A DNA stretch of 64,000 nt. Source: Azospirillaceae bacterium. Its GTDB lineage: Bacteria; Pseudomonadota; Alphaproteobacteria; Azospirillales; Azospirillaceae. The notes beneath the pieces are model-generated. The model had not been told where the DNA came from. It made no database searches and worked only from the letters and a program-made list of their open reading frames with translations. This document shows, piece after piece, positions 111 to 63,687 of this stretch (position 1 is its first letter; each line of letters starts with the position of its first letter). The translations under genes and the position numbers were made by a program. Location: assembly GCA_028281465.1 (NCBI GenBank), contig JANQJV010000018.1, positions 1-64,000 on the forward strand. Reading direction: 5' to 3'.

Positions 111-143
111 CTGTGGAGCATGAATTTATTGCGCGGGACTGGG

Positions 144-1101: not shown

Positions 1102-1152
1102 CATACCGGAGCGACGAAACCAGGCACCCCGGTCTCAGAAGAGGGATTTGCG

Positions 1153-2436
1153 ATGAAGGGTTTGAGAGCGCTGCGGCAGTCCACCCTTGCCTTTACGGCC
1201 GCGACGGTCATCGGGGCCGGCGTGCCCGCCATATCGGCGGCGGAGACGATCAAGGTCGGCATTCTGCATTCCTTGTCAGGCACCATGGCGATCAGTGAGA
1301 CGACGCTGAAGGACGTCATGCTGATGCTGATCGAGCGTCAGAACGAGGCTGGTGGTCTGCTCGGCATGCCGTTGGAGCCGGTGGTGGTCGACCCGGCCTC
1401 GGATTGGCCGCTGTTCGCCGAAAAAGCGCGTGAGCTGATCTCGCAGGAAGAGGTCGCCGTGGTGTTCGGCTGCTGGACCTCGGTGTCGCGCAAGTCCGTG
1501 CTACCGGTGTTTGAGGAACTGAACGGCCTCTTGTTCTATCCGGTGCAGTATGAGGGCGAGGAATCCTCGCGCAACGTGTTCTACACCGGGGCGGCGCCGA
1601 ACCAGCAGGCGATCCCGGCGGTGGAATACTTGATGAGCGAGGACGGCGGCGGTGCCGAGCGCTTCGTGCTTTTGGGCACAGACTACGTCTATCCGCGCAC
1701 CACCAATAAGATCCTGCGCGCCTTCCTGAATGCCAATGGCGTTGGCGACGAAGACATCTTCGAAAACTACACACCGTTCGGCCACTCCGACTGGCAGACG
1801 ATCGTCGCCGAAGTGAAGGACTTCGCCTCACAGGGCAAGCGCACCGCCGTGGTTTCCACCATCAACGGCGACGCCAATGTGCCGTTCTACAAGGAACTGG
1901 CCAACCAGGGCGTGTCGGCGGATGATCTGCCGGTCGTGGCATTTTCGGTCGGCGAAGAGGAACTGGCGGGTTTGGATACCGAGCCGCTGGTCGGCCACCT
2001 GGCTGCCTGGAACTATTTCATGTCGGTCGACTCCGATGAGAACTTCGACTTCATCGATGCCTGGCACGCCTTCATCGGCGATGAGAACCGCGTCACCAAC
2101 GACCCTATGGAAGCGCACTACATCGGCTTCACAATGTGGGCGCAGGCGGTGCAGCAGGCCGGCACCACCGACGTCGACGCCGTGCGCCAGGCCATGTACA
2201 GGCAATCCGCCCCCAACCTGACCGGTGGCACGGCGGTGATGAACACCAACCACCACCTGTCCAAGCCGGTGCTGATTGGCGAAATCCAGGCCGACGGCCA
2301 GTTCGAGACCGTTTGGGAGACCGACGGTCTTGTGGTTGGCGATGCCTGGTCCGACTACATCCCGGAAAGCGCCAAGCTGACCGCCGACTGGACCTATCCT
2401 TGGGTGTGCGGCAACTGCGAAGAACCGCGGTTCTGA
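1153..2436 (+). CDS. urtA: Urea ABC transporter substrate-binding protein UrtA
   Basis: This is the periplasmic receptor of the high-affinity urea transporter UrtABCDE, related to the leucine/amide-binding family. The 427-residue product starts with a signal peptide (basic MKGLRALRQ, hydrophobic core, cleavage near AISAAE). It then shows IKVGILHSLSGTMAIS, a GCWTSVSRKSVLPV segment and a TNHHLSKPVLIGEI segment characteristic of UrtA rather than of LivJ. The ATG at 1153 is chosen because it begins the signal peptide; the frame is open further upstream. It is followed by a 211-bp gap with strong palindromes before urtB, an arrangement often seen where the binding protein is made in excess over the membrane subunits. 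Confidence 0.95.
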   Translation: MKGLRALRQSTLAFTAATVIGAGVPAISAAETIKVGILHSLSGTMAISETTLKDVMLMLIERQNEAGGLLGMPLEPVVVDPASDWPLFAEKARELISQEEVAVVFGCWTSVSRKSVLPVFEELNGLLFYPVQYEGEESSRNVFYTGAAPNQQAIPAVEYLMSEDGGGAERFVLLGTDYVYPRTTNKILRAFLNANGVGDEDIFENYTPFGHSDWQTIVAEVKDFASQGKRTAVVSTINGDANVPFYKELANQGVSADDLPVVAFSVGEEELAGLDTEPLVGHLAAWNYFMSVDSDENFDFIDAWHAFIGDENRVTNDPMEAHYIGFTMWAQAVQQAGTTDVDAVRQAMYRQSAPNLTGGTAVMNTNHHLSKPVLIGEIQADGQFETVWETDGLVVGDAWSDYIPESAKLTADWTYPWVCGNCEEPRF

Positions 2437-2470
2437 TGAGAGAGCCTTTGGGCGTCGGTTCGGTTTGACT

Positions 2471-2640
2471 CGTAGGTTGGGGCACGGCGCGCACGACGGC
2501 TGCCATCCAGGCGCGACCGTTGAAACGCCGTGCCCCAACATCCGGCGTTTCGATGAGCTGAAGGGCCGGCTGTTGTGGCGATCTGCCCCAGCCTCCTTTC
2601 GTCCATCAAAGATCGTGCCAGCAGATCGCCACAACCTACG
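2471..2640 (+). repeat. Opposed pair of REP-like palindromes between urtA and urtB
   Basis: Two perfect stems lie in this gap: 2476-2489 with 2526-2539 (14 bp) and 2572-2586 with 2621-2635 (15 bp). Each unit is preceded by CGTAG in its own orientation (2471-2475 on plus, 2636-2640 on minus), so these also pair with each other and close the whole element. A third short stem joins 2542-2546 with 2565-2569. The GTAG base next to a palindrome and the head-to-head arrangement resemble REP doublets mobilised by RAYT (TnpA-REP) transposases, although loops of about 35 bases are long for REPs. In RNA it would fold as a four-way junction ending directly before the urtB ribosome binding site. There is no U-run, so it is not a simple terminator. 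Confidence 0.7.
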
Positions 2641-2647
2641 GAGAGGA

Positions 2648-4303
2648 ATGGCGGTGTTCCAAAGCTTGCGATACACGACTGTTTCATCCGTTGTCCTCAT
2701 GATCTGGCTCGGCATGGCCGCCGTCACTGCCGCCGCGGCGCAGGACTTGGCGGACCGGGTAGCGGCCCTGGCCGAGGGCGGCTTCAACGACAAAGTCACG
2801 GCCGTCGGGGCCCTGGCGGCAACCGGGGACGACCGTGCGGCGCCGGTGCTGGAGGCCATGCTCGAGGGCCTGTTGTTCACGCAGCGGGAAGGCGGGTCCA
2901 TCGTCATCGGCGAACACCTGTCACGCAGAGAACTGCGCCTGGCCGATGCGGTCACCGGTGCCGACCTGGGCACCGCGGGCAGCCGCTCGGTGCGCAAGAT
3001 CCGCATCAACAATCGGGTGCGGGCGGCGATCCGGTCGGCGCTGGGCGGGCTCAAGCTGATGCACCCCGACCCGGCCGAGCGCCGTGCCGCCGCCGCCGCC
3101 GTTCTCAACGCGCCCGACCTGTCGTTCCTGCCCACGCTGGACACGGCGATCGACCGGGAAACCGAGCCGGACCTAAAGACCTTGCTCGGCAAGGCGCGCG
3201 CAGCGGTGTTGCTGTCGAGCGAGACCGTAGCCGACCGCCTGGAGGCGGTGCGGTATCTGGGCACCTACACTGATCCGGAGGTACGCGGTCTGCTCGGCGG
3301 CCTGTTGGTCGAACGCGGCGGACGCCAGGCCGAACCGGATGACGCGGTCCGCGCGGCGGCCGCCGAGGCGATCGCCGACATCGACCGGCGTTTGCAGCAG
3401 TGGGCCATCGTCGGCAACATCTACCAGGGCATCAGCCTGGGTTCGGTGCTGCTGCTGGCCGCCATCGGGCTTGCCATCACCTTCGGTGTGATGGGCGTCA
3501 TCAACATGGCGCACGGCGAAATGGTGATGCTCGGCGCCTACGCCACCTTCGTGACGCAGGAGCTGTTCCGTGCCTATTGGCCCGGTTATTTCGGCTGGTC
3601 GCTGGCGGTGGCGATCCCGTTCGCGTTTCTGGTCACGGCCCTGGTCGGCATGGCGATCGAACGCGGCATCATCCGGTTCTTGTACGGCCGGCCGTTGGAG
3701 ACGCTGTTGGCCACCTGGGGGCTGAGCCTGATCCTGCAACAGGCGGTGCGCACGATCTTCGGGCCGACCAACCGGGAGGTCGGCACGCCCGACTGGATGC
3801 AGGGCGCCATCGAGACCACCGCCGGCCTCACGCTCACGTACAACCGTCTGTACATCATACTCTTCAGCCTGATCGTGCTGTTTGCGCTCATGCTCGTTCT
3901 GCGCCACACGGCCCTCGGCTTGCAGATGCGTGCGGTCACCCAGAACCGACCCATGGCCGCCGGCATGGGCATTCCGACCGGCCGGGTCGACATGCTGACA
4001 TTCGGCTTGGGCTCGGGCATTGCCGGCATCGGCGGGGTGGCCTTGAGCCAGATCGACAACGTCAGTCCCAACTTGGGCCAGTCGTACATCGTCGACAGTT
4101 TCATGGTCGTGGTGTTCGGCGGCGTTGGCAATCTTTGGGGCACCCTGGCCGGTGCCATGAGCCTGGGCGTGATCAACAAGCTGCTGGAGCCGTATGCCGG
4201 GGCGGTGCTGGCGAAAATCCTCGTTCTGGTCGCCATCATCCTGTTCATTCAAAAGCGGCCGCGCGGCTTGTTCGCGCTCAAAGGCCGTGCGGTGGAGGCG
4301 TGA
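2648..4303 (+). CDS. urtB: Urea ABC transporter permease UrtB
   Basis: First membrane subunit of the urea transporter, 551 residues. It has a signal-like segment (residues 1-31) and then a soluble helical extension to about residue 250, which is typical of UrtB and distinguishes it from LivH. The LivH-type permease domain follows, with segments such as GSVLLLAAIGLAITFGVMGV, INMAHGEMVMLGAYA and VFGGVGNLWGTLAGA. The ATG at 2648 is preferred over upstream starts because it has a GGAGAGG ribosome binding site and begins the hydrophobic leader. The stop is five bases before urtC. Confidence 0.95.
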   Translation: MAVFQSLRYTTVSSVVLMIWLGMAAVTAAAAQDLADRVAALAEGGFNDKVTAVGALAATGDDRAAPVLEAMLEGLLFTQREGGSIVIGEHLSRRELRLADAVTGADLGTAGSRSVRKIRINNRVRAAIRSALGGLKLMHPDPAERRAAAAAVLNAPDLSFLPTLDTAIDRETEPDLKTLLGKARAAVLLSSETVADRLEAVRYLGTYTDPEVRGLLGGLLVERGGRQAEPDDAVRAAAAEAIADIDRRLQQWAIVGNIYQGISLGSVLLLAAIGLAITFGVMGVINMAHGEMVMLGAYATFVTQELFRAYWPGYFGWSLAVAIPFAFLVTALVGMAIERGIIRFLYGRPLETLLATWGLSLILQQAVRTIFGPTNREVGTPDWMQGAIETTAGLTLTYNRLYIILFSLIVLFALMLVLRHTALGLQMRAVTQNRPMAAGMGIPTGRVDMLTFGLGSGIAGIGGVALSQIDNVSPNLGQSYIVDSFMVVVFGGVGNLWGTLAGAMSLGVINKLLEPYAGAVLAKILVLVAIILFIQKRPRGLFALKGRAVEA

Positions 4304-4308
4304 CCGCC

Positions 4309-5496
4309 ATGGCCACCGGGTCTTCGTCCGGCTACACGCCGCTCTTGCTGCGCATCGATGCCGGCGGCTGGGTGCTGCTGCTGGTCCTGATCGCCGCCGG
4401 CATCGGCGTGCCGTATGCCAACCAGATGCTGCCACAGGAGTCGCCCTGGCACGTGCCGACCTGGCTGGTCGCCCTGCTCGGCAAGTACCTGTGTTTTGCC
4501 CTTCTGGCGCTCAGCGTCGATTTGGTCTGGGGTTTCTGCGGCATCCTCAGCCTCGGTCACGGTGCCTTCTTTGCGCTCGGCGGTTATGCCATGGGCATGC
4601 ACCTCATGCGCCAGATCGGCGACCGCGGCGTTTACGGCAACCCGGACCTGCCCGACTTCATGGTGTTTCTGAATTGGGACAGCCTGCCGTGGTATTGGTA
4701 TGGATTCGACCAGTTCTGGTTCGCCATGCTCATGGTCATGCTGGTGCCGGGCATGCTCGCCTTTGTCTTCGGCTGGTTCGCCTTTCGCTCGCGGGTCACC
4801 GGCGTTTATCTGTCGATCATCACCCAGGCCATGACCTATGCGCTTTTGCTGGCGTTCTTCCGCAACGACATGGGCTTCGGCGGCAACAACGGCTTGACCG
4901 ATTTCAAGGATATCCTGGGTTTTTCCCTGCAGGCGGATGCGACGCGCTGCGCCCTGTTCGCCGCCAGCGCCGTGGCGCTCGGCGTGGGTTATCTTCTGTG
5001 CCGCTTCATCGTCACGTCCAAGGCGGGGCGCGTGCTGGTTGCCGTGCGCGACGCCGAAAGTCGGACGCGGTTCTTGGGCTACCGGGTCGAACACTACAAA
5101 TTGTTCGTCTTCACGGTGTCCGCCGTGCTGGCCGGGATCGCCGGAGCCTTGTATGTGCCGCAGGTCGGCATCATCAATCCGGGCGAGTTCTCGCCGGCCA
5201 ATTCCATCGAGATCGTCGTCTGGGTCGCCGTCGGCGGGCGCGGGACTCTGTATGGCGCCGCCCTGGGCGGCGTCCTGGTCAACTATGGCAAGACCTATTT
5301 TACCGCCGCCATGCCCGAGCTTTGGCTATTCCTGCTCGGTGGCCTGTTCATCGCCGTCACCTTGCTGCTGCCGCGCGGCATCGTCGGCACGCTGCAGCTT
5401 TGGGGCGGCGTGCTGCGCCGCAGGTTTTCGAGCGGTGACCGGAAGCGAGGCTCGCACGGCGCCGTGGCTCCGGCCCCGGCGGGAGGCGGTGAATGA
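4309..5496 (+). CDS. urtC: Urea ABC transporter permease UrtC
   Basis: Second membrane subunit, 395 residues, LivM type. It shows SLGHGAFFALGGYAMG near residue 85 and GVYLSIITQAMTYALLL, FFRNDMGFGGNNGLTDF and WVAVGGRGTLYGAALGG further on, all hallmark segments of UrtC. The C-terminal tail after about residue 370 is basic and then Ala/Pro/Gly-rich. The frame stays open upstream inside urtB, but the ATG at 4309 begins the conserved protein. The stop overlaps the start of urtD by four bases (ATGA), pointing to translational coupling. Confidence 0.95.
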   Translation: MATGSSSGYTPLLLRIDAGGWVLLLVLIAAGIGVPYANQMLPQESPWHVPTWLVALLGKYLCFALLALSVDLVWGFCGILSLGHGAFFALGGYAMGMHLMRQIGDRGVYGNPDLPDFMVFLNWDSLPWYWYGFDQFWFAMLMVMLVPGMLAFVFGWFAFRSRVTGVYLSIITQAMTYALLLAFFRNDMGFGGNNGLTDFKDILGFSLQADATRCALFAASAVALGVGYLLCRFIVTSKAGRVLVAVRDAESRTRFLGYRVEHYKLFVFTVSAVLAGIAGALYVPQVGIINPGEFSPANSIEIVVWVAVGGRGTLYGAALGGVLVNYGKTYFTAAMPELWLFLLGGLFIAVTLLLPRGIVGTLQLWGGVLRRRFSSGDRKRGSHGAVAPAPAGGGE

Positions 5497-6257
5497 CCAC
5501 CTCGACGCGCGACAAGCTGTCCACCTCGATCCTGTACGTCAACGCCGTGACGGTCAGTTTCGACGGCTTCAAGGCACTGAACGACCTGAGCTTCACCATC
5601 GATCCGGGCGAGATGCGCGCGGTGATCGGGCCGAACGGGGCCGGCAAGACCACGATGATGGATGTGGTGACCGGTAAGACGCGCCCGACATCCGGCGACA
5701 TTCTGTTCAATGGTCGGGTCGACCTGACCCGACTGGATGAAGCGTCGATCGCCCGGCTCGGCATTGGGCGCAAATTCCAGCGTCCGACCGTGTTTGAGAA
5801 CCATACCGTGTTGGACAACCTCGAACTGGCGTTGGCCGGCAGCCGCACCGTGAAGCACAGCTTGTTCGCCCGCTTATCCGGGGAGGCGCGCGACCGGCTG
5901 GACGAACTCCTGACCATCATCGCCTTGACCGACCGTCGGCATCAGCGCGCCGGTGCCCTGTCGCATGGCGAGAAGCAATGGTTGGAGATCGGCATGCTGT
6001 TGGCCCAAGACCCGGACCTTTTGTTCTTGGACGAGCCGGCCGCGGGCATGACCGATGCCGAGACCGAACAAACCGCCGAACTGCTCAAAGGCATTGCCGG
6101 CCGGCATTCAATTGTCGTGGTCGAACACGACATGGCCTTCGTGCGGTCGCTGGGGGTGCGGGTCACCGTGTTGCACGAAGGCGCTGTGCTGGCCGAAGGC
6201 TCCATGGACGCGGTGCAGCAGAACCCGCGTGTGATCGATGTTTACCTGGGGCGTTGA
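5493..6257 (+). CDS. urtD: Urea ABC transporter ATP-binding protein UrtD
   Basis: Cytoplasmic ATPase of the urea transporter, 254 residues, LivG type. It has Walker A GPNGAGKTT, the signature LSHGEKQWLEIGM, Walker B LLFLDEP followed by AAGMTDAET, and a switch histidine in VVVEHDMAFV. LSHGEKQWLEIGM with AAGMTDAET is typical of UrtD and separates it from ordinary LivG. The start overlaps the urtC stop (ATGA), and urtE begins three bases after its stop. Confidence 0.96.
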   Translation: MTTSTRDKLSTSILYVNAVTVSFDGFKALNDLSFTIDPGEMRAVIGPNGAGKTTMMDVVTGKTRPTSGDILFNGRVDLTRLDEASIARLGIGRKFQRPTVFENHTVLDNLELALAGSRTVKHSLFARLSGEARDRLDELLTIIALTDRRHQRAGALSHGEKQWLEIGMLLAQDPDLLFLDEPAAGMTDAETEQTAELLKGIAGRHSIVVVEHDMAFVRSLGVRVTVLHEGAVLAEGSMDAVQQNPRVIDVYLGR

Positions 6258-6260
6258 GCC

Positions 6261-6956
6261 ATGTTGCAGGCGGATACGGTACATCTTTACTATGGGGCGA
6301 GCCACGCTGTGCGCGGCGCGTCGCTCCAGGCCGAACCGGGGCAGGTGACCTGCCTGTTGGGCCGCAATGGCGTCGGCAAGACCAGCCTGCTCAAGGCGAT
6401 TGTGGGTCTGCAGCCGATTCTGGCGGGCCGCATCCTGTGGCAGGGGCGCGACGTGACCCGCTGGCCGGTGCACCGGCGCGCAGCGGCCGGCATCGCCCAT
6501 GTGCCGCAGGGCCGGGAGATTTTTCCGTTGCTCACGGTGGAGGAAAACTTGCGCACCGGATTTTCTGCATTGCCAAAGCGCGAGCGGTGTATTCCCGATC
6601 AAGTATTCTCTCTATTTCCAGTTCTCAAACAAATGTTGCGCCGCCGTGGCGGCGATCTCTCCGGCGGCCAACAGCAGCAACTGGCCATCGCGCGGGCGCT
6701 GGTGATGCGGCCCAAGCTGTTGATCCTGGACGAGCCGACCGAGGGTATCCAGCCGTCGATCATCCAGGAGATCGGGTCGGTGATCCGGGCCCTGGCGCAA
6801 CAGGGGAGCATGGCGATTCTACTGGTGGAGCAATATTTCGAATTCGCCCGCGACCTGGCTTCGGTCTTCGCCGTGATGGATCGTGGCGAGATCGTGGTGT
6901 CGGGTCGGCGCGAGGATATGGCAGAGGATGCGGTGCGCCGGTATCTGACGGTGTGA
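6261..6956 (+). CDS. urtE: Urea ABC transporter ATP-binding protein UrtE
   Basis: Second ATPase, 231 residues, LivF type. It shows Walker A LLGRNGVGKTSLLKAIVG, a PQGREIFPLLTVEENL segment typical of LivF/UrtE, the signature DLSGGQQQQLAIARAL and Walker B LLILDEPTEGIQPSII. A stretch around 6570-6650 is noticeably less GC-rich than the rest of the gene, but the domain is intact. The stop overlaps the ureD start (TGATG), so uptake and urease genes are probably co-transcribed. Confidence 0.95.
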   Translation: MLQADTVHLYYGASHAVRGASLQAEPGQVTCLLGRNGVGKTSLLKAIVGLQPILAGRILWQGRDVTRWPVHRRAAAGIAHVPQGREIFPLLTVEENLRTGFSALPKRERCIPDQVFSLFPVLKQMLRRRGGDLSGGQQQQLAIARALVMRPKLLILDEPTEGIQPSIIQEIGSVIRALAQQGSMAILLVEQYFEFARDLASVFAVMDRGEIVVSGRREDMAEDAVRRYLTV

Positions 6957-7807
6957 TGGCGGGTTGGGCAGCGTCGCGCCCGCGGCTGGCGCGCGCCGAT
7001 GGTGCGGCGCGGCTCGCCTTTGCGGTCGTCGACGGCACGACGCGGTTGACCGATCTGTACCAACGGACACCGTGCCGGGTGATGTTTCCGCGCGTGCCGC
7101 GGGGTGAGCCGCCCGAAGCGGTGTTGGTGACGACGACCGGCGGCCTCACGGGCGGCGACCGGGTGGCGGTATCGGTGGCCGCCGGGACTGGCGCCCGGGC
7201 CACGGTGACGGCGCAGGCGGCGGAGAAGCTGTACCGCGCCGGACCGGACGGCGATACGCGGGTCGATACCGCCTTGGTGGTGGAGCCCCAGGCATGCTTG
7301 GAGTATCTGCCGCAGGAGACGATCCTGTTCGACGGTGCCCGGTTCGACCGGACGATCACGGCGGCGGTGGCCGCGACGGGTCGGTTGCTGGCCGTCGATC
7401 TGCTGGTGTTTGGTCGGCACGCCCATGGCGAACGGTTCGCGTCCGGCCGGGTGCACGACCGTTGGCGGGTCACGCGTGCCGACCGGCCGGTGTGGGCCGA
7501 TGCGCTGCGGCTGGACGGGGACATCCCGGCACTCCTGGATCATCCTGCCGGCTTCGGCGGCGCTCCGGCCATGGCCACGGTCATACTGGTCGCCCCGGAT
7601 GCCGGGACCTGGTGTGGGCTGGCTCGCGACGTGCTGGCACCGGCTGGCCGCCGGGCGGCGGCCACGGTCTTGCACGGTTTGCTGCTGGCGCGCATTCTCG
7701 CGCCCGTGGTAGCCGAGACCCGAGCATTGGCCGCGAACCTGACCGCGGCGCTGCGGCATGCCGCTTTCGGCCATCGCGCAGACATGCCCCGGGTGTGGCA
7801 GACGTGA
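6956..7807 (+). CDS. ureD: Urease accessory protein UreD
   Basis: UreD (also called UreH) is the scaffold that binds urease apoprotein together with UreF and UreG for nickel insertion. The 283-residue product has the family segments TTTGGLTGGDRV, TVTAQAAEKLYR, CLEYLPQETILFDGA and DLLVFGRHAHGE. The ATG at 6956 overlaps the urtE stop; the frame extends upstream through urtE but only this part is UreD. The usual order ureD-ureA-ureB-ureC begins here but is not completed in this window. Confidence 0.93.
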   Translation: MAGWAASRPRLARADGAARLAFAVVDGTTRLTDLYQRTPCRVMFPRVPRGEPPEAVLVTTTGGLTGGDRVAVSVAAGTGARATVTAQAAEKLYRAGPDGDTRVDTALVVEPQACLEYLPQETILFDGARFDRTITAAVAATGRLLAVDLLVFGRHAHGERFASGRVHDRWRVTRADRPVWADALRLDGDIPALLDHPAGFGGAPAMATVILVAPDAGTWCGLARDVLAPAGRRAAATVLHGLLLARILAPVVAETRALAANLTAALRHAAFGHRADMPRVWQT

Positions 7808-7845
7808 CCCTCTCGCCCTTCGGAGATCGACAGGAGTGAACCCTG

Positions 7846-8148
7846 ATGAACCTGACCCCGCGCGAAAAGGACAAACTGTTGGTGGCTATGGCGGCGCAGG
7901 TGGCACGCCGGCGGCTGGAACGCGGCCTGAAGCTAAACCACCCGGAGGCGGTGGCGTTGATCACCGATTTCGTCGTTGAAGGCGCGCGCGACGGCAAGAG
8001 CGTTGCCGATCTGATGGCCGAGGGTGCCCATGTGCTGAAGCGCAGCCAGGTGATGGACGGGATTGCCGAGATGATCCACGACGTCCAGGTGGAAGCCACC
8101 TTTCCCGACGGCACCAAGCTGGTGACCGTGCACCAACCGATCCGGTGA
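7846..8148 (+). CDS. ureA: Urease subunit gamma UreA
   Basis: Small structural subunit of urease, 100 residues, which is the normal full length. It starts [17 protein letters not shown] and contains [27 protein letters not shown] and a C-terminal [14 protein letters not shown], all diagnostic for UreA. AGGAG lies about nine bases upstream of the ATG. The gene itself is intact, yet no ureB or ureC follows: the next 250 bases are non-coding and lead into a repeat, and the next gene is unrelated and on the other strand. See findings. Confidence 0.95.
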
Positions 8149-8400
8149 CGGGGCGCGGCCTGGCCTGTTAATGATTGCGCCGGTTCGGCCAGAGGCCGCC
8201 AAGCCGAAACGGCATGGCCGCAAAAACGGCGGCGCGGCAACCGTGCATACGCCCGAGTCAAGACGACACGTGCAAGTCTGTACGTCAGACGTAAGCTGAT
8301 CGGCCACCAGGTGGTCACCAGAGGTCCATCGACGCTGTCGCCGTCGCCGGTTTCCAGCAAATCCAACAGGCCATCGTTATGCGCCGGATGCCACGGGGCG
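8149..8400. other. Non-coding stretch between ureA and repeat copy 2
   Basis: No recognisable gene, RNA or terminator. ureB would normally begin within about 50 bases of the ureA stop but does not. A minus-strand frame across 8290-8430 reads like protein (for example GIIAPWHPAHNDGLLDLLE) and continues into the repeat, but has no recognised homology and no clear start; it could be a fragment of a gene associated with the repeat. Confidence 0.4.
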
Positions 8401-8500
8401 ATGATACCCATGGCCCGCATGGATGACAGGTTCGGTTTCGGCGCTGAACGAGGAGCGCCGGCATCCCTGCCGGCTGGCCCGCCGCCATCTTGGCGGCCGG
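8401..8500 (+). repeat. Hairpin-rich repeat, copy 2
   Basis: Inverted partner of 11-110. The core at 8425-8500 matches copy 1 at 72 of 76 positions, and the outer part 8401-8424 matches more loosely. The palindromes of copy 1 are retained, including CCGCCA-TCT-TGGCGG. Differences in the outer part fall mostly at third codon positions of the shared minus-strand frame, a weak hint that the repeat contains or derives from coding sequence. Downstream of it, 8501-8728 holds nothing recognisable. Confidence 0.8.
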
Positions 8501-8728
8501 CGGCGGGGCGTGGGCCGGGCCGACGGGGCGTCGGCGCTCCGGGATGTGGCCACGACCCGCCCAGAGGTTCATCCTCTGCGGGACGGCGAAAGGAGGGCAC
8601 GCCGTCGAAAAGCCACCGTTTCGGTCATGGTGGGTCGGTCGAAAGGCCGGTGTGGGACTAGACAGTTATCTTTCGCCCATGAACCCTATTGCGGCCCGAC
8701 GACGGCGACTTGGTCGCGCGATGCCACC

Positions 8729-9331
8729 TCACCAGCCTCCCGTGGCCAGCCATCGGTCCAAATCGGCCAGTCGGTCGGCGCCCCAGAACGGCTCACCCTC
8801 GACAAGGAAGAACGGTGAACCGAAAACACCGCGGCTGATGGCATCATCCACGACGGCGCGCAACCGGTCTTTGACTGGGGCGCTTCGGCAGGCCTGATCG
8901 ATCTCGCCCGGATTCAGGCCATGCGCCGTCGACAGATCAGCCACGGCTTCGACCGTTTCCGGCGCTTCGCCGCGGCCCCAATGGGCGCGGAACACGTCTA
9001 TGGCCAACGTTCTGGCAAGATCGCTGCGTTCGGTCATCTCCAGCCAGTGGAACACCCGGGCCGGTATCAAGCTGTTCAACGGCATGGCGTCGGGCCACAC
9101 CAGCGGGAGACCGGCCGCGCGGGCACACCGAGCGACGTCGTGGCGCAGATACTCATCACGCATCGGCATGAGCATGGACGGCTTCATGCCGGTGACCTTG
9201 AAGACCGCGCCGAGCAGAATCGGCCGCCAAAGGACCAGCCTCCCATGGCGACGGCCCAGGTCATCAATGCGCGCCGACGCCAGGTAGGCATACGGCGAGG
9301 CGAAATCGAAGAAAAACTCGATTGGCTGCAT
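8729..9331 (-). CDS. 2-hydroxychromene-2-carboxylate isomerase family (DsbA-fold) protein
   Basis: This is a thioredoxin/DsbA-fold protein of about 200 residues of the HCCA isomerase/kappa GST type. It begins with IEFFFDFASPYAYLAS, where the serine of the SPY motif is the expected glutathione-activating residue, and ends with GVFGSPFFLVEGEPFWGADRL, the conserved cis-proline and substrate-side motif. HCCA isomerases act in naphthalene degradation, but most homologues outside such operons have an unknown glutathione-dependent role. No aromatic-degradation genes are nearby. An upstream GTG at 9346 is an alternative start. Confidence 0.85.
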   Translation of the reverse strand: MQPIEFFFDFASPYAYLASARIDDLGRRHGRLVLWRPILLGAVFKVTGMKPSMLMPMRDEYLRHDVARCARAAGLPLVWPDAMPLNSLIPARVFHWLEMTERSDLARTLAIDVFRAHWGRGEAPETVEAVADLSTAHGLNPGEIDQACRSAPVKDRLRAVVDDAISRGVFGSPFFLVEGEPFWGADRLADLDRWLATGGW

Positions 9332-9502
9332 GGGTCCAGTCTTCACCGCCTACCACTCCCATAGCGCCTGTCGCGCGTGCCACCATGATGTCGACGACCG
9401 ACCCGCGCCGAAGCGGCGCCCCACTCTCTAAAGACAGCCCGGCGCACGGCCACCGCCAACCCGCACCTTGCATACCGTGCGTGGTCCCTTTATTGTCAGT
9501 GG

Positions 9503-9530
9503 TTGATTAAGAACTCGGTAAGAATATGTA
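9503..9530 (+). promoter_or_regulatory. Possible sigma-70-type promoter for the 9579 gene
   Basis: TTGATT (9503-9508) and TATGTA (9525-9530) are separated by 16 bases in an AT-richer patch of an otherwise GC-rich gap, about 50 bases before the next start codon. No flagellar sigma-28 or sigma-54 element was recognised. The assignment rests only on sequence resemblance. Confidence 0.3.
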
Positions 9531-9578
9531 GGAGGGAGACGGGGTCTCTGCCGTCCACCCTTGGTGTTGGAGACCAAC

Positions 9579-9773
9579 ATGGAGATCAATGCGTCCGGCC
9601 TGCAGGCGTCCGCTGGGTTCGCGGCGCCCTTTCGGGTTCCTAGCGGTGGTGCGGTCGAAACCGCATCGGCCGAAGCGCCACCGCCGGAACAAACGCCTCC
9701 AGCTCCGGTTGCCAACCAACCGGTGGAGTCGGTGTCGGATGGGCGCGGGCAGCGCGTCGACATCGTGGTCTAG
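9579..9773 (+). CDS. Small hypothetical protein next to FlaG-like gene
   Basis: A 64-residue protein starting MEINASGLQAS with a GGAG ribosome binding site six bases upstream. The middle is rich in Ala, Pro and Glu and the tail is GRGQRVDIVV. Both this protein and the next one start with MEI and end in a short run of valines, which suggests a related pair. No domain is recognised. A role linked to the flagellar filament is inferred only from its FlaG-like neighbour. Confidence 0.55.
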   Translation: MEINASGLQASAGFAAPFRVPSGGAVETASAEAPPPEQTPPAPVANQPVESVSDGRGQRVDIVV

Positions 9774-9808
9774 CCATCTGATCCGCACTCGGCAGGACTC
9801 GTTGACCC

Positions 9809-10354
9809 ATGGAGATCCGGCCTCTCGTTTCGCCAGACATCACAAGTCGGCCCGCTGCCGAGCCGATCGGGCGTGCCGAGTCGTCGGAACGGCAGCCATC
9901 CATCATACGCGCCACGACAGCACCGGCGCCGGTCACCAGCCCGGTGCTTCGATATGACCAGGCGGCCGGTCTTGCTGTTCTCAAGTTCGTTGATGACGAG
10001 ACCGGCGAGGTAACCACACAGATTCCATCGGAACGGGTCGTGGAGCTGTACCGCCAGACTGGCTTCCGGCGAGCGACGGGTCGGGAGGATCTTGCCGAAA
10101 TGGCCGCTCTGCTGCCGACCCAAGAAGCGGTGCGCCTTGGGGCAATCCCGGCCAACATTTCCGCCGGCGGCCCGACTCCGGATGGTGGTCCGAGCAGGAT
10201 TGCTGGGGCGGCAGCGACCGGGCCTTCGAACAGTGGCGCGGCAGAGCTCGTCTCCGCATCGCGGCTTTCCTCGTCCGGCACGGCCGGATCAGCAAGTGCG
10301 GCACCCGGCGCATCGACACCGGGCCGTTCAGGTCGGGTGTCCGTCGTCGTCTGA
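9809..10354 (+). CDS. FlaG-like protein
   Basis: A 181-residue protein whose central part (about residues 48-82) carries RYDQAAGLAVLKFVDDETGE followed by a QIPSERVVELY stretch, the pattern of the FlaG family (a hydrophobic strand, D-x-E-T-G-E, then Q-I-P). FlaG proteins influence flagellar filament length in other bacteria. Here the FlaG core is followed by about 100 residues of low-complexity Ala/Ser/Gly/Pro sequence ending VSVVV, longer than a typical FlaG. It lies far from the main flagellar cluster at 34-45 kb. Its last 27 bases overlap the convergent glycosyltransferase gene. Confidence 0.6.
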   Translation: MEIRPLVSPDITSRPAAEPIGRAESSERQPSIIRATTAPAPVTSPVLRYDQAAGLAVLKFVDDETGEVTTQIPSERVVELYRQTGFRRATGREDLAEMAALLPTQEAVRLGAIPANISAGGPTPDGGPSRIAGAAATGPSNSGAAELVSASRLSSSGTAGSASAAPGASTPGRSGRVSVVV

Positions 10355-11596
10355 TTCAGCACGTCGGGCGACCCACGCAGCCAATCGTGCCAACGTCCTT
10401 GCCTGGTTGACCCGAAGGTCTTGCGCCAGCAGTCGGGCGGCTCGTGCAGCCTGTTCATGCCAACGTCGATCCAACAAGATAGCCAGCACGTCGTCCAGCA
10501 ACGCGACCCGATCCGAGGCGGTGACCGCCATCTCCATGGTCAGACGGTAGCCGGCCGAGCCGAACAGGCGCCAGGCATCACATGAGTCCGGACCGGCGAA
10601 CACGAACGGTCGGCCCAAACTGATTGCCGTCACCAGCTTCGACGGCAGGCATAGGTCGGCAGCAGCCGAAGTCAGGCTGACGAAATGCACATCAGCCTGA
10701 CGGAGGTCCTCATCCGCCAACCAGGACGACCACGAGATGTCCGGACATCCCGCGAGCGACCGCCGGAACGCCTCAGCTTTGGTGCCGGACACTGCGAAGT
10801 CGAACCGGATCGGCAGCCCGCGTTCGGTCGACCGCCGCACCAGTGCAACCAACGGCTCGGCGTCGTGCGCGGCCCCCATGGTGCCGGCATAGGCAACGGT
10901 CACCCTGCTGGCAAGCCGCGGTGACAACGGCCCCACCGAACCCGGGCCGGCCGTGATCATCCCGGACGGGAGCAGGAAGCACGGGCCGATTCCGCCGCGC
11001 AGCTCCGCTAGGCGGCGGGCCTGTCCGGCTCCCAGGCAGATTACAGCTCCGGGGCGCAGCCGGCGCCATAATGCAACAGCGAGGCGAAAGAGCGGATGGC
11101 GGTCTGAAATCACACCGGCCGCCGCAAACAGCGCCGGGTACACATCCATGCACCATTCCACCCAACAGGTGCCGTTTCGACGCCGCAAGGCCGCCACCGC
11201 GAGCGGCAGAAAGGGTGGATCGGTCAAGCAGATGACCACATCTGCCCAACGGCCTGCGGCCCACGCCAAACGGACAGCCAAATAGCCATCGATCAATACC
11301 CTGAACCACCCCGCCGCCGGACCGCGCGCGCCAGCGATGCGCCGAAGCGTGACGGATCGGACGGCGACATCCGTGGCCGGCGCCTGGGGCCGGTAACACG
11401 CCGTCGTGGCGTAAAGACGAATGGACGCCTCTGGCAGCGCCTGAGCCAGGGCCTGAGCCGCGGCAGCCATGGCGATACCGGTCGGGGCGGCGTCCGGCGG
11501 GGCATAGCGGTTGACCAGCGCAATGCGCAGCGCCCTGCGACGTTTCCGGCAGTGCCCGTTGTGAGTGACGTCACATGTTGGTGTAGTTGGGACCAC
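10328..11596 (-). CDS. Glycosyltransferase, group 1 (GT4-like)
   Basis: This is a predicted cytoplasmic or peripheral glycosyltransferase of about 420 residues with a GT-B layout. The N-terminal ALRIALVNRYAPPDAAPTG resembles the nucleotide-fold start of WbuB-like GT4 enzymes, and VTVAYAGTMGAAHDAEPLV begins the C-terminal domain. A later stretch, CLPSKLVTAISLGRPFVFAG, matches the acceptor/nucleotide-sugar loop (P-S-K-x-x-x-x-x-x-x-G-R-P). The start is unclear: the conserved protein begins just after the ETF-QO stop without an ATG, so a GTG inside the end of that gene (11596) is given; a rare CTG closer in is possible. Acceptor and sugar are unknown. Confidence 0.7.
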   Translation of the reverse strand: MVPTTPTCDVTHNGHCRKRRRALRIALVNRYAPPDAAPTGIAMAAAAQALAQALPEASIRLYATTACYRPQAPATDVAVRSVTLRRIAGARGPAAGWFRVLIDGYLAVRLAWAAGRWADVVICLTDPPFLPLAVAALRRRNGTCWVEWCMDVYPALFAAAGVISDRHPLFRLAVALWRRLRPGAVICLGAGQARRLAELRGGIGPCFLLPSGMITAGPGSVGPLSPRLASRVTVAYAGTMGAAHDAEPLVALVRRSTERGLPIRFDFAVSGTKAEAFRRSLAGCPDISWSSWLADEDLRQADVHFVSLTSAAADLCLPSKLVTAISLGRPFVFAGPDSCDAWRLFGSAGYRLTMEMAVTASDRVALLDDVLAILLDRRWHEQAARAARLLAQDLRVNQARTLARLAAWVARRAESDDDGHPT

Positions 11597-13208
11597 CGCC
11601 GCCTTCGGGAACCACCCAATTGATGTTCTGCGTCGGATCCTTGATGTCGCAGGTCTTGCAATGCACACAATTTGTGGCATTTATCTGCAGACGGGGATTG
11701 CCATGCTCCCCTTCTCGGACGATTTCATAGACACCGGCAGGGCAATAATATTGCTCTGGTGCGTTGTAGACAGCCAGGTTAACGGCGATTGGAACATCCC
11801 GGTTGCGCAGCATCAAATGGCACGGCTGGTTTTCTTCGTGGTTCGTCCCCGAGAGATAGATCGAAGACAACAGATCGAAGCTGACCACACCGTCCGGCTT
11901 TGGATAGTCGATCGGTCGCGCCTGCACCGCGGGCTTCAAAGTCTGGTGGTCGGCCTTGTGGTGTCGCAGAGTCCACGGCGCCCGGCCGCGCAGCACATAG
12001 GAATCGAAGCCAGCATAGGCCAATGCTGGAAACAGGCTAAAGCGGAACGCCGGCCGGATATTTCGCACAGCGTGCAGTTCTGGCCACAACCAACTCTGGC
12101 GTAGCGCGCTCGGATAACCCACCACCTCGCCACGGCCGTCGCCATCAAACAGATGGTCGATCAACGCGTCGGCTGCGACCATACCTGACTTCATGGCCGT
12201 GTGGGTGCCTTTGATCTTCGGCACGTTGAGGAAACCAGCCGCATCCCCGACGATCAACCCGCCCGGCATGGTCAGCTTGGGGAGGGACTGCAGGCCGCCC
12301 TCAGTCAATGTCCGGGCACCATAGGCGACGCGCCGGCCGCCCTCGAACAGCGGACGGATTTTCGGGTGAGTCTTGAACCGTTGGAATTCCTGGAAAGGCG
12401 ACAAATAGGGGTTCTCATAGTCGAGGCCGACCACAAACCCCACCGCCACCTGGTTATCGACCATGTGATAGAGGAACGACCCGCCATAGGTCTTACTGTC
12501 CAGTGGCCAACCAATGGTATGCATCACCTCGCCCGGCCGATGCTTGGCCTGGTCGATGTCCCAAATCTCCTTGACCCCCAGACCATAGGTCTGGGGGTCA
12601 GCCTCGGCCCTGAGCGCAAAGCGCTCGATCACCATCTTGGTCAGGGATCCATGGCAGCCCTCGGCAAACACGGTTTGTTTTGCTCGGAGTTCTACACCAG
12701 CCGTGTGTGCCGGGGTCGGCGTGCCGTCCCGGCCGATGCCCATGTCGCCCGTGGCAACGCCACACACCGCCGCACAGTCATCATACAATACCTCAGCCCC
12801 GGCAAAGCCGGCGTAAATCTCAACACCCAAGGCTTCCGCCTGTTCCGCCAGCCAGCGGCCCAGAGTCCCGACGCTCATGATGTAGTTGCCGCGGTTGTGC
12901 ATCTGTGGCGGGGTCGGCATCGGGATGGCAAGGGTCTGGGTGAGAAAGTGGAAATGGTCGCGCGTGGCGGCTGCCATGTCTGGCGGTTGCCGGTCGCGCC
13001 AGTCGGGGAACAATTCGGAGAGCGCCCGTGGTTCGATCACGGCACCAGACAGCAGGTGAGACCCGACCTCCGACCCTTTTTCGATCACGCACACCGTGAC
13101 GTCGCGGTCTTTCAGTAACGCCTGCTGCTTAAGCCGAATTGCCGCGGACAGACCGGCCGGACCGGCCCCGACCACAACGACATCGTACTCCATCACCTCC
13201 CGTTCCAT
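11571..13208 (-). CDS. Electron transfer flavoprotein-ubiquinone oxidoreductase
   Basis: ETF-QO passes electrons from electron transfer flavoprotein, and so from fatty-acid and amino-acid dehydrogenases, to ubiquinone at the inner membrane. The 545-residue protein has the FAD-binding motif VVVVGAGPAGLSAAIRL near the N-terminus, GAVIEPRALSELFPDW, AEGCHGSLTK, a second flavin segment GLIVGDAAGFLNVPKIKG, and at the C-terminus a 4Fe-4S ferredoxin region containing QINATNCVHCKTCDIKDP. The ATG at 13208 is preferred over 13265 because the flavin fold starts soon after it and a GAGG precedes it. ETF itself is not encoded nearby. Confidence 0.95.
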   Translation of the reverse strand: MEREVMEYDVVVVGAGPAGLSAAIRLKQQALLKDRDVTVCVIEKGSEVGSHLLSGAVIEPRALSELFPDWRDRQPPDMAAATRDHFHFLTQTLAIPMPTPPQMHNRGNYIMSVGTLGRWLAEQAEALGVEIYAGFAGAEVLYDDCAAVCGVATGDMGIGRDGTPTPAHTAGVELRAKQTVFAEGCHGSLTKMVIERFALRAEADPQTYGLGVKEIWDIDQAKHRPGEVMHTIGWPLDSKTYGGSFLYHMVDNQVAVGFVVGLDYENPYLSPFQEFQRFKTHPKIRPLFEGGRRVAYGARTLTEGGLQSLPKLTMPGGLIVGDAAGFLNVPKIKGTHTAMKSGMVAADALIDHLFDGDGRGEVVGYPSALRQSWLWPELHAVRNIRPAFRFSLFPALAYAGFDSYVLRGRAPWTLRHHKADHQTLKPAVQARPIDYPKPDGVVSFDLLSSIYLSGTNHEENQPCHLMLRNRDVPIAVNLAVYNAPEQYYCPAGVYEIVREGEHGNPRLQINATNCVHCKTCDIKDPTQNINWVVPEGGGGPNYTNM

Positions 13209-48704: not shown

Positions 48705-49616
48705 TCAATGGTCGTCGCCACCCAGACGTCCCAGGACCTCGTCTAACTGGTCGAGGCTCGTATAGCGAATTGTCACCGTGCCCCCCTTACCTTTTGGGGC
48801 AATGGCCACTTTGAGACCGAGTCGGGACGACACCTGCTTTTCCAGCGCCTGGATGTCGGCATCTTTGGTTTTCACCAACCGAGCCACATCTTTTTTGATG
48901 GCCGCTGGTTCGGTCTCGCTGCGCACCAATTGCTCGGTCTGCCGCACGTTCAGCCCCTGTTTAACGATGCTGTCGGCGAGTGCCGCCGGATCCCCCGCCG
49001 TCAGGAGGGCTCGGGCATGCCCGGCGCTGAGTGACCCATCATGCAGGTGTTTTTTGATGCCGTCCGGCAGGGACAACAGACGCAACATATTGGCAACGTG
49101 ACTCCGACTTTTGCCAACGATGCGGCCGACCGCCTCCTGTGTATGGTCGAACTCCTCCAGCAGTCGTTTGTAGCCTTCCGCTTCTTCCAGTGGCGATAGA
49201 TCCTGGCGCTGGATGTTCTCGATCAATGAGACTTCCAACGCCTCCCGGTCGCCCAGGTCGCGCAGGACGATCGGCAGTTCGTGGAGACCGGCGATCTGCG
49301 CCGCCCGCCAACGCCGTTCGCCACAAATGATCTGATAGGTATTGGCGTCGGCCGGATCGCGGCGTACCAGCAGCGGCTGCAGGATGCCCTTCTCCTTGAT
49401 CGATTCGACGAGGCCGTTGATCGCCTCTTCGTCGAAGAGGCGTCGGGGCTGAAACGGTCCTGGTTTCAGGAACTCGATCGGGACTTGCTTGGTCTGCCGC
49501 ACCTTGTCGAGCGACGCATAGTCCTCGTTGGCATCGCCGAACAGCGCCGACAGGCCGCGCCCGAGATTGGCACGACGGGCATCGGCACGGGCATCGGCAC
49601 GTTTCGACTCCGCCAT
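48705..49616 (-). CDS. parB: Chromosome partitioning protein ParB
   Basis: CTP-dependent DNA clamp that loads at parS and spreads. The 303-residue protein has an N-terminal ParA-interacting segment with LGRGLSALFGD, the ParB/Srx CTPase domain (PGPFQPRRLFDEEAINGLVE, CGERRWRAAQIAG, SLIENIQRQDLSPLEEAEGY) and the helix-turn-helix HTQEAVGRIVGKSRSHVANM with LLSLPDGIK, followed by the linker and C-terminal dimerisation domain (VTIRYTSLDQLDEVLGRL). The ATG overlaps the parA stop (TGATG); a GTG one codon earlier is an alternative. Two perfect parS sites lie within 3.5 kb. Confidence 0.97.
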   Translation of the reverse strand: MAESKRADARADARRANLGRGLSALFGDANEDYASLDKVRQTKQVPIEFLKPGPFQPRRLFDEEAINGLVESIKEKGILQPLLVRRDPADANTYQIICGERRWRAAQIAGLHELPIVLRDLGDREALEVSLIENIQRQDLSPLEEAEGYKRLLEEFDHTQEAVGRIVGKSRSHVANMLRLLSLPDGIKKHLHDGSLSAGHARALLTAGDPAALADSIVKQGLNVRQTEQLVRSETEPAAIKKDVARLVKTKDADIQALEKQVSSRLGLKVAIAPKGKGGTVTIRYTSLDQLDEVLGRLGGDDH

Positions 49617-50401
49617 CACGCCGCCATCCTCCGTTTCTCACGCTTCAGGACCTCACTGGCCAGATGGATGTAGGCCTGCGAGCCAGGGCAACGCATGTCA
49701 TAGATCAGGACAGGCTTGCCGTGCGACGGTGCTTCCGAGACCTTGACGTTGCGCGGGATCACCGTGTCGTAGACCTTGTCGCCGAAGAAGCCGCGCACAT
49801 CCGCGGCCACCATGTCCGACAGATTGTTCCGCTTGTCGAACATGGTCAACACGACACCGTGTATTTCCAATGTCGGGTTGAAGGTGCGTTTGACCCGTTC
49901 GATGGTGCGCACCAGGTGGCTCAGGCCCTCGAGCGCATAGAACTCGCATTGCAACGGCACCAACACCGCATCCGCCGCCACCAACGCGTTCAGCGTCAGG
50001 AATCCGAGCGCCGGCGGGCAGTCAATCAGAATATAGTCGTAATCGAGCGGCTGCCGGATCAAGGCGTCGCGCAGGCGGTACTCGCGGTTTTCGGCACTCA
50101 CCAGTTCCACCTCGGCGCCGGATAGATGCACCGACGACGTTACCAGGAAAAGGTTGGGCACCGAACATTCAACAACGGCCTCGTCGATTGGCAGATCGGC
50201 GAACAGCACCTCGTAGCTGCCGACGCCACGGCTAGCCCGACCGACCCCAAAGCCCGTGGAAGCGTTGCCCTGTGGATCGAAATCGATGACCAGGATGCGT
50301 TTGCCGACCGCGGCCAAAGCCGTAGCCAGATTAATGGCCGTGGTGGTCTTGCCGACACCACCCTTCTGATTGGCGATGGCGATCACACGCGCTGATGTCA
50401 T
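49616..50401 (-). CDS. parA: Chromosome partitioning ATPase ParA (Soj)
   Basis: Walker-type ATPase that positions ParB-parS complexes. The 261-residue protein begins RVIAIANQKGGVGKTTTAIN (deviant Walker A with the signature Lys), then LVIDFDPQGNASTGFG, YILIDCPPALGFLTLNALVA and GVVLTMFDKRNNLS. The ATG at 50401 is preceded by GGGAGAG. The upstream frame is open but not conserved. Together with parB it forms a standard chromosomal parAB operon after rsmG. Confidence 0.97.
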   Translation of the reverse strand: MTSARVIAIANQKGGVGKTTTAINLATALAAVGKRILVIDFDPQGNASTGFGVGRASRGVGSYEVLFADLPIDEAVVECSVPNLFLVTSSVHLSGAEVELVSAENREYRLRDALIRQPLDYDYILIDCPPALGFLTLNALVAADAVLVPLQCEFYALEGLSHLVRTIERVKRTFNPTLEIHGVVLTMFDKRNNLSDMVAADVRGFFGDKVYDTVIPRNVKVSEAPSHGKPVLIYDMRCPGSQAYIHLASEVLKREKRRMAA

Positions 50402-50436
50402 TTCGACTCTCCCGTCATACCAATAGGCGGTCTGTG

Positions 50437-51093
50437 TTACGCCTGTCGCCGTACCAGATCTTGGAGTCTGAGAATGACTCCATCGGGGTCGGTGACACTT
50501 GGCAGGCGTTCCACAGCCATATTCCATGCCGGGGCAGCAGCGGTCAATTCTTGATCGACTCGACGGCCCTTAGCAAACAGCGCCATCGAGCCAGGCCGCC
50601 AAAAACGGGCCGTGTAGTCGAGGAGTTTTGGTAGGGGGGCAAGCGCCCGGGCGGTGATCACGGCGGCAGATCGGGCCTTAACTGATTCGATTCGGCACCC
50701 TTCGACGGTGACGGCGAGACCCATGATCCGCGCCGCTTGGCGGAGGAAGCTGGCTTTGCGGCCATCGGCTTCGATCAAGGTGACCGGTACCGGAGTTAGG
50801 CAGGCCAGGATCAAACCCGGAAACCCAGCCCCGCTACCAAGATCGATCAGCGACTCGGCATCAGCGGGAACGTGCCAGACTAGCTGGGCCGAATCCAGGA
50901 TGTGCCGGCGCCAGACCTGTGACATGGTCGAGGGTGCTACAAGGTTGATGCGGGATTGCCATTGCTGAAGCAAGGTCACAAAACAGGCCAACCGAATGCC
51001 TGTTTCACGTGAAACACTGGCGAGCGACTCAAGCTGGCGAATCGCTTCAATCTCACTGTGGCAACGCACCGATTCAGGAGGCCAGCTTGTCAT
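50437..51093 (-). CDS. rsmG: 16S rRNA (guanine(527)-N7)-methyltransferase RsmG (GidB)
   Basis: SAM-dependent methyltransferase that modifies G527 of 16S rRNA, 218 residues. It has [51 protein letters not shown] (SAM-binding loop) and [20 protein letters not shown]. Residues VSRETG near the start are encoded by a perfect parS site (51001-51016). It overlaps the mnmG stop by about 20 bases, continuing the mnmE-mnmG-rsmG-parA-parB order known from many bacteria. Confidence 0.96.
51001..51016. promoter_or_regulatory. parS: parS site 1 (inside rsmG)
   Basis: TGTTTCACGTGAAACA is a perfect 16-bp match to the bacterial chromosomal parS consensus. It lies in the 5' part of rsmG and is translated as part of VSRETG. 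It is the nucleation site for the ParB encoded next door. Confidence 0.95.
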
Positions 51094-52993: not shown

Positions 52994-53009
52994 TGTTTCA
53001 CGTGAAACA
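52994..53009. promoter_or_regulatory. parS: parS site 2 (mnmG-mnmE gap)
   Basis: TGTTTCACGTGAAACA, identical to site 1, lies immediately after the mnmE stop codon (53010-53012) in the short gap before mnmG. The two sites are 1,993 bp apart and about 9.4 and 11.4 kb from the presumed origin at 62.3-62.7 kb. Confidence 0.95.
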
Positions 53010-61450: not shown

Positions 61451-62275
61451 TCAATCCTCCGAACTCTGCCGTTCTGCGAGCAAAGTCAGAATCTCCGCTG
61501 CGGTCTCCTCGATCGAGCGTCGGCTGACATCGATGGTGGGCCATCCTTTGCGGGCAAACAACCGCCGGGCCGCCGTGACTTCCTGGCGCACCTGATCGGG
61601 ATCGACATAGTCGCTATCACGCCCGTGCCGCCACAACCGCACCCGACTGCGTCGGACCGACACCAGCCGGTCCGGATCGTTGGTCAACCCGACCACCAGC
61701 ACTTTGCGCAGGGCGTCCAGCTCGGCCGGTGGCGGACGGCCGGCGATCAAAGGCACATTGGCCGCCTTGACGCCCCGGTTGGCCAGATACACACACGTCG
61801 GCGTTTTCGAGGTTCGGGAGACTCCGACCAGGACCACATCGGCCTCATGGATATCGTCCAACCCCATCCCGTCGTCGTGCATCAGGGCAAAGTCCATCGC
61901 ATCCATACGCCGGAAGTACTCTTCGTCCAGCACATGCTGACGTCCGGGCTGGCGGCGGGTTTCGATCCGTAAAAAGCCCGTAAAGGCTTCAATCGCCGGA
62001 TCGAGGACCGAAACACACGGCAGCTTTAGGGCCCGGCAAGCATCTTCGAGCCGGCCCCGCTGAGCCAGATCGACCAAGGTGAAAAGGACGACGCCCGGAT
62101 GCTCCTTGATGCCGCCGATGACGACATCGAGCTGGCGCACCGTACGGACCAGAGTCCAAAGATGTTCCACGGGTTCGACATCATCGAAAAGACTTACGGT
62201 GGCCCGGGCGACTCGGCTAATCGTCTCCCCGGTGGCGTCCGAAACCAGATGAAGGTGAAACCGTTTTTGCGCCAT
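61451..62275 (-). CDS. ppsR: Pyruvate, phosphate dikinase regulatory protein (PPRP, DUF299)
   Basis: Bifunctional ADP-dependent kinase and phosphorylase controlling pyruvate phosphate dikinase or PEP synthase. The 274-residue protein has FHLHLVSDATGETISRVARA, DVVLVGVSRTSKTPTCVYLA (P-loop-like), NRGVKAANVPLIAGRPPP and IDVSRRSIEETAAEILTLL. It is transcribed away from the presumed origin, divergent from hemE; this neighbour of hemE is conserved in many alphaproteobacteria. Confidence 0.95.
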   Translation of the reverse strand: MAQKRFHLHLVSDATGETISRVARATVSLFDDVEPVEHLWTLVRTVRQLDVVIGGIKEHPGVVLFTLVDLAQRGRLEDACRALKLPCVSVLDPAIEAFTGFLRIETRRQPGRQHVLDEEYFRRMDAMDFALMHDDGMGLDDIHEADVVLVGVSRTSKTPTCVYLANRGVKAANVPLIAGRPPPAELDALRKVLVVGLTNDPDRLVSVRRSRVRLWRHGRDSDYVDPDQVRQEVTAARRLFARKGWPTIDVSRRSIEETAAEILTLLAERQSSED

Positions 62276-62664
62276 CTTACCCACACTCTTCGATAGGCCT
62301 TGCGGACAACCCAAATATTATTAATAGATCACTGATCACTTAACGAACTTAATCAGTATCAACACATTTTGACATCTTCTCGCCATAATCATCAAACCCG
62401 GTGCATAACAAAACGATCAACAGAAAATCGATGCTGCCGTGCAAACCCGCTTCGGGTGCCGAATCGGCGGAGTCCCGCTATTCAAGTGAACGACGTGCAA
62501 CTTATCCACACCCGATCTGAACGCCCCTGCCTTGTGCACAACCCTGGGCATGTTTGCTGCACCGCCGCTAATCCCCAGGATCCACCGGGTACAACAAATT
62601 CCATTCCTATTTTCTTTTTTTTGGTTTTGAGTGGCGACGCAATTCCTGGAGGACATGGGACGTC
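62276..62664. other. oriC: Probable chromosomal replication origin (oriC)
   Basis: This 389-base gap between divergent ppsR and hemE is strikingly AT-rich at 62310-62430 compared with the genome, as expected of a DNA unwinding element. It has a perfect DnaA box TTATCCACA (62502-62510), two one-mismatch boxes (TTGTGCACA at 62532-62540; complement of TTATGCACC at 62400-62408), a tandem GATCACT repeat (62327-62340) and a near-consensus IHF site TATCAACACATTT (about 62358-62370). In Caulobacter and Rickettsia the origin lies beside hemE, and the parABS locus here is only about 10 kb away. Other promoters for hemE and ppsR must also be present. Confidence 0.78.
62502..62510 (+). promoter_or_regulatory. 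DnaA box, perfect match
   Basis: TTATCCACA equals the strong bacterial DnaA box consensus. It sits in the hemE-ppsR gap about 160 bases before hemE. Confidence 0.8.
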
Positions 62665-63687
62665 ATGAAGCCGTTACTCGCCGCTCTGAATCGCCAACCG
62701 ACCAAGCACCCACCAATTTGGCTCATGCGGCAGGCAGGCCGCTATTTGCCGGAATACCGCGACATTCGGCGTCGTGTGACATCGTTCCTCGAGCTTTGCT
62801 ATACGCCCGAGCTGGCAACGGAAGTCACGCTGCAACCGATCCGTCGGTTCGGTTTGGATGCGGCGATTCTGTTTTCCGATATTCTGGTCGTGCCGCATGC
62901 GCTTGGCCGCAATGTTCGGTTCCTGGAAGGGGAAGGCCCACAGCTCGACCCGGTGGAGACCGATCGGGACGTCGATGCTCTGACGGACGGGTTTCGCATG
63001 GCCGTACTTGATCCTGTGATCGAGACGGTGACGCGGCTGCGCGCGGCGTTGGACGATCAGACCGCGTTGATCGGCTTCGCCGGCGCCCCCTGGACGGTTG
63101 CCTGCTACATGATAGACGGGTCGACCAGCCGCGACTGGCCCAAGAGTCGGCATATGGCGTTTGGAGCGCCGGACCGAATGGACCGGTTGTTGGCGGCCCT
63201 GGTGGAGTGCACAGAACGGTATCTGGTACGCCAGGTCGAAGCTGGTGCCGAAGTCGTGCAGCTGTTCGAAAGCTGGGCGGGCATTCTACCCGATACCGCC
63301 TTCGAGCGCTTCGTAATTCGGCCGACCGCGGATTTGGTTGAGCGTTTACGCCAGCGTTTTCCGACGCTTCCGATTGTCGGCTTTCCACGGGGAGCTGGCG
63401 CGCTGTATGAGACCTATGCTCGCGGCACGGGGGTCGTCGGCGTGAGTCTGGATTCCACAGTTCCTCTGTCTTGGGCGCGTGAGCGACTTGCACCCACGTG
63501 GGTTGTCCAAGGCAATCTGGATCCTATGCTTCTGGTGGTTGGTGGATCGGCCATGGACCGGTCGGCCCGGCGGATCGTCGAACAGCTCGGTCCGTCCGGG
63601 TTCATATTCAACCTGGGACATGGGGTTGTGCCGGAAACGCCGCCGGGTCATGTGGAGGCGTTGGTCCGGACGGTGCGGTCTCTGTGA
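62665..63687 (+). CDS. hemE: Uroporphyrinogen decarboxylase HemE
   Basis: Cytoplasmic heme-pathway enzyme that converts uroporphyrinogen III to coproporphyrinogen III, 340 residues. It has [20 protein letters not shown] (substrate-binding signature), [16 protein letters not shown] (catalytic Asp), [16 protein letters not shown] and [20 protein letters not shown] (C-terminal signature). GGAGGA lies upstream of the ATG. It is followed seven bases later by hemH. Proximity to the origin is conserved in alphaproteobacteria. Confidence 0.97.

Follow-up and report, generated by a model that had tools for sequence, protein, structure and literature searches.

Where on the chromosome of this Azospirillaceae bacterium does replication begin? 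The question is raised by the intergenic gap between the divergent genes ppsR and hemE, which was analyzed in a window of 64,000 bases (bases 1-64000 of contig C165, which is 76,464 bases long and belongs to a draft assembly of 6.33 Mb in 426 contigs). An initial annotation had called this gap a probable chromosome origin, located beside hemE as in Caulobacter and Rickettsia. A skew minimum, a unique skew switch, and the conservation of the gap and its boxes support this proposal, and from the sequence evidence we conclude, with a probability of roughly 0.93, that this bacterium has its chromosomal oriC in the ppsR-hemE gap. Both flanking genes were confirmed by family matches, and the gap comprises exactly 389 bp:

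61451 to 62275, minus strand: ppsR (COG1806/DUF299; PEP synthase regulator), left flank; NF003742, 319 bits; ATG at 62275
62276 to 62664: ppsR-hemE intergenic gap, proposed oriC, marked by the skew minimum, the unique skew switch and the densest box cluster, and kept in relatives
62665 to 63687, plus strand: hemE, right flank; TIGR01464, 396 bits; ATG at 62665

At 0.483, the GC content of the gap is below the 0.632 of the window, and the stretches of 200, 389 and 500 bp with the least GC in the whole window all overlap it, in agreement with its earlier description as the most AT-rich long stretch. A motif scan of the gap also recovered the tandem GATCACT pair of the initial annotation (as GATCAC copies) and the second sequence element named there, TTAACGAACTTAA. 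The gap showed no secondary structure signal (z-score -0.23), and an Rfam search with it gave no match. Two AT-rich tracts are candidates for DNA unwinding:

62314 to 62353: the 40-mer with the highest AT content in the gap (78%), on the ppsR side, a possible unwinding element that holds the GATCAC pair and TTAACGAACTTAA
62327 and 62334: tandem GATCAC pair
62340: TTAACGAACTTAA element
62586 to 62636: tract rich in AT and in pyrimidines on the hemE side, a likely unwinding element; in 21 of 21 relatives the 40-mer with the highest AT content is on this side

Because the draft is divided into 426 contigs, skew curves describe single contigs and not the whole chromosome; that of C165 was computed including the 12.5 kb beyond the window. 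Its cumulative extremes fall at or next to the gap, with the GC minimum at 62842, the keto minimum at 62603 and the AT maximum at 62598. At four-fold sites, plus-strand GC skew just left of the gap is -0.27 in plus genes and -0.20 in minus genes, and right of the gap it is +0.18 in plus genes (62-70 kb) and +0.08 in minus genes (70-76 kb); the one minus ORF of opposite sign on the right lies over hemE as a shadow ORF. The sign thus changes on genes of either strand, which ties the skew to the place and leaves gene direction as no explanation. The comparison with the rest of the genome used a sample of 84 stretches (1.19 Mb, ~20% of the assembly), including contigs with exact TTATNCACA boxes and evenly spaced contigs, of which 40 stretches were long enough for the switch test. 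The switch at the gap was 0.204, and the next highest among the 39 other stretches 0.077; with 5 kb arms, the values were 0.225 at the gap and 0.133 for the next among 53 stretches. A skew minimum elsewhere, for example near dnaA, had been named beforehand as evidence against an origin here; on the draft the minimum lies at the gap, and the sampled contigs hold no comparable switch. Within the same arm, bases 1-12000 of the window have positive four-fold-site GC skew on both strands, opposite to that of 12-62 kb, perhaps because this segment was inverted locally, was acquired, or was joined on during assembly.

The partition locus lies on the ppsR side of the gap:

48705 to 49619, minus strand: parB (TIGR00180)
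49616 to 50527, minus strand: parA (ParA-type ATPase matches), adjoining parB
51001 to 51016: perfect parS site TGTTTCACGTGAAACA
52994 to 53009: perfect parS site TGTTTCACGTGAAACA

Thus, the parABS system that had been reported within 10-14 kb is present. The two perfect parS sites, 9-11 kb from the gap, are the only ones in the 6.33 Mb assembly, where even the 14-base core GTTTCACGTGAAAC has no copy beyond 51001 and 52994. According to a survey as quoted in PMC4468827, 92% of parS sites are found within the origin-proximal 15% of the chromosome.

The DnaA boxes of the gap were identified using a box scan and a family profile trained on the gaps of relatives only:

62277 to 62285, plus strand: near DnaA box TTACCCACA, 9.2 bits
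62301 to 62309, minus strand: weak DnaA box TTGTCCGCA, 8.2 bits (family profile)
62400 to 62408, minus strand: near DnaA box TTATGCACC, 8.8 bits
62502 to 62510, plus strand: perfect DnaA box TTATCCACA, 12.5 bits (family profile)
62532 to 62541, both strands (62532/62533): palindromic near DnaA box TTGTGCACA (box scan and family profile)
62545 to 62553, minus strand: ACATGCCCA, in the place of the minus-strand box that the family conserves, here decayed; 33 bp ahead of 62578
62569 to 62577, plus strand: DnaA box TAATCCCCA, second strongest of the gap, 11.5 bits (family profile)
62578 to 62586, plus strand: GGATCCACC, decayed counterpart of the family's conserved plus-strand TTATCCACA box (alignment with relatives)

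The box scan found the perfect box of the initial annotation again, with near-boxes at 62277, 62400 and the palindrome, and the family profile added TAATCCCCA and TTGTCCGCA, which that annotation had missed. Exact and near boxes form four independent sites in 389 bp, where the frequency outside the gap (9 such matches in the other 63.6 kb of the window) predicts ~0.06, giving a Poisson P of ~4e-7. With the family profile, six sites of at least 7.5 bits were detected in the whole gap, and five when its first two bases were left out, compared to 0.3 in shuffled sequence. Strong boxes (at least 9 bits) number three counting 62277 and two without it, whereas the relatives have 4-8. The box-reading segment of the DnaA of this genome, judged by eye, is presumably canonical. 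The Caulobacter origin also uses weak boxes, with stronger ones elsewhere in the genome (PMC4468827), and the modest box set is therefore no argument against an origin.

The gap is the densest DnaA-box cluster among the 1.19 Mb sampled and the sole cluster on its contig. This bears on the reading that the origin is nearby but outside the gap, for example in another intergenic site within a few kilobases. The skew resolves position only to ~1 kb (extremes 62598-62842), and another perfect box is present at 64078, inside hemH, but it is the gap that holds the contig's only cluster and the one conserved in relatives, making such a displaced origin extremely improbable.

A different reading takes the gap for a mere divergent promoter of ppsR and hemE, at which DnaA acts as a transcription factor, with the origin elsewhere, for example near dnaA. 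The first near-box begins two bases upstream of the ppsR start codon and hence overlaps the ppsR ribosome-binding region, and DnaA boxes also occur at ordinary genes, as on contig C290, where a ribonucleotide reductase gene has strong ones at its start. However, a promoter does not produce a replication-type switch at the four-fold sites of plus and minus genes alike, and the switch (among the sampled stretches) and both parS sites were found only in the neighbourhood of the gap. The dnaA contig, moreover, has uniformly negative GC skew over 35 kb and no DnaA-box cluster by the family profile. We consider this explanation very improbable.

Three other box clusters were considered as origins and rejected. 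On C290, a group of four strong DnaA boxes (3815-4460), including two exact TTATCCACA, surrounds the start of the ribonucleotide reductase gene (4360-6648) without a comparable skew switch, which suggests that DnaA controls nucleotide supply there. Two exact boxes 145 bp apart on C95 (7839-7992), with no obvious gene of their own, follow an mltG-like gene; this cluster lies beside lipid/murein genes and also shows no comparable switch. The third cluster, on C200, sits in a transposase fragment.

Among 27 relatives' genomes with a hemE match, 21 have ppsR divergently adjoining hemE, with gaps of 324-680 bp that each contain 4-8 boxes of at least 9 bits on the family profile. In each of ten such relatives, the best box cluster within 40 kb surrounding hemE was the one at the ppsR-hemE gap. 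In an eleventh genome tested, from the same class (G021), no ppsR was found beside hemE and no box cluster within the 40 kb; its GC skew switches at hemE all the same. In 10 of the 22 gaps, a minus-strand and a plus-strand box have starts separated by 33 bp; in four the separation is 34 bp. Many family gaps thus keep this pair at the 33 bp spacing, whereas both of its members are degenerate here (ACATGCCCA at 62545 and GGATCCACC at 62578). The place of the gap, its DnaA boxes and the AT-rich tract on the hemE side are common to the family. A skew switch at ppsR-hemE was absent in the relatives G002, G007, G012, G013, G016 and G017, and for G002 and G007 the skew samples gave too faint a signal to be usable. 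G007 also contains a 20 kb stretch (140001-160000) with 32.6% GC in a genome of ~68% GC, about 140 kb from dnaA, which looks like a foreign island.

The relative G002 is very probably Rhodospirillum centenum, since its DnaA domain is found at 3,128,206 and the R. centenum dnaA starts at 3,127,698 (PMC2890560). The authors of that genome paper described a GC skew without strong inflection and took dnaA/dnaN as a possible guide to the approximate position of the origin (PMC2890560), a view that would favour an origin away from ppsR-hemE. The G002 skew samples were likewise weak. However, the dnaA region of this genome (3120001-3140000) contains isolated weak boxes only and no cluster, whereas the ppsR-hemE gap, ~248 kb from dnaA, shows the common family arrangement with four boxes in 500 bp, one of them perfect. 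Because of this difference, the R. centenum origin is probably at ppsR-hemE and not near dnaA.

The gap has the same flanks, hemE and COG1806/CC_0001, as the experimentally located Caulobacter crescentus origin Cori (PMC1914354). It is also similar in length (389 bp here, 404 bp in Cori), and both are AT-richer than the genome or window, mix stronger and weak DnaA boxes, and have a par locus within ~10 kb (for Caulobacter, PMC4468827). The boxes of Cori are moderate-affinity G-boxes and weak W-boxes, whereas the top box of this gap is a perfect TTATCCACA. By consensus, the gap has neither CtrA sites (TTAA-N7-TTAA), of which Cori contains five, nor an IHF site, which Cori also carries. The consensus scan detected no TTAA-N7-TTAA in the gap, and TTAACGAACTTAA was rejected as a CtrA site because its spacer is 5 bases and not 7. 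CtrA sites are not required at all such origins, as some Ehrlichia and Wolbachia oris do not have them (PMC1914354). GcrA is encoded in the genome. The IHF-like site of the initial annotation did not hold up, as neither IHF consensus (WATCAN5WTR or WATCAANNNNTTR) matched in the gap; WATCAN5WTR is present in just 2 of 21 relatives' gaps. The Rickettsia prowazekii ori (384 bp) also lies between hemE and COG1806 (PMC1914354), but Rickettsia oris are predicted to carry CtrA and IHF sites and are >80% AT, compared to ~52% AT here. Thus, among the features of hemE/COG1806 oriC regions, the gap has the flanks, the box cluster (in the 1.19 Mb sample), the AT enrichment relative to the window and the skew switch (on the contig), and lacks the CtrA and IHF consensus sites. 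DnaA-trios were sought as a DnaA box, a spacer of at most 16 bp and at least three NAN trios; the best candidate adjoins TTATGCACC (62400, minus strand) and was equalled in 4 of 60 shuffles.

For initiation at this oriC, DnaA would first occupy the perfect box (62502) and TAATCCCCA (62569), and would then fill the weaker boxes cooperatively. It would open the DNA in an AT-rich element, most probably at 62586-62636 on the hemE side, a tract common to all relatives, or alternatively at the ppsR-side element near 62314-62353. Two forks would then depart in opposite directions, and ParAB would move the duplicated origin via the parS sites 9-11 kb away. A speculative and rather unlikely extension is that the origin of this lineage has been rewired: with the 33-bp box pair decayed, initiation may now depend on TAATCCCCA (62569) together with a newly arisen unwinding element toward ppsR that is richer in AT, with neither CtrA nor IHF taking part.

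Since the gene setting is already known from Caulobacter and Rickettsia, the novelty is modest; what is added is the family-wide placement of the origin and the decayed box pair. The origin is placed precisely in a family where skew had failed in R. centenum, as the strong skew of the present genome, a relative of that species, indicates ppsR-hemE, in agreement with the box clusters of the other relatives. The 22 gaps also provide a comparative set for determining which DnaA boxes an alphaproteobacterial origin needs without CtrA sites.
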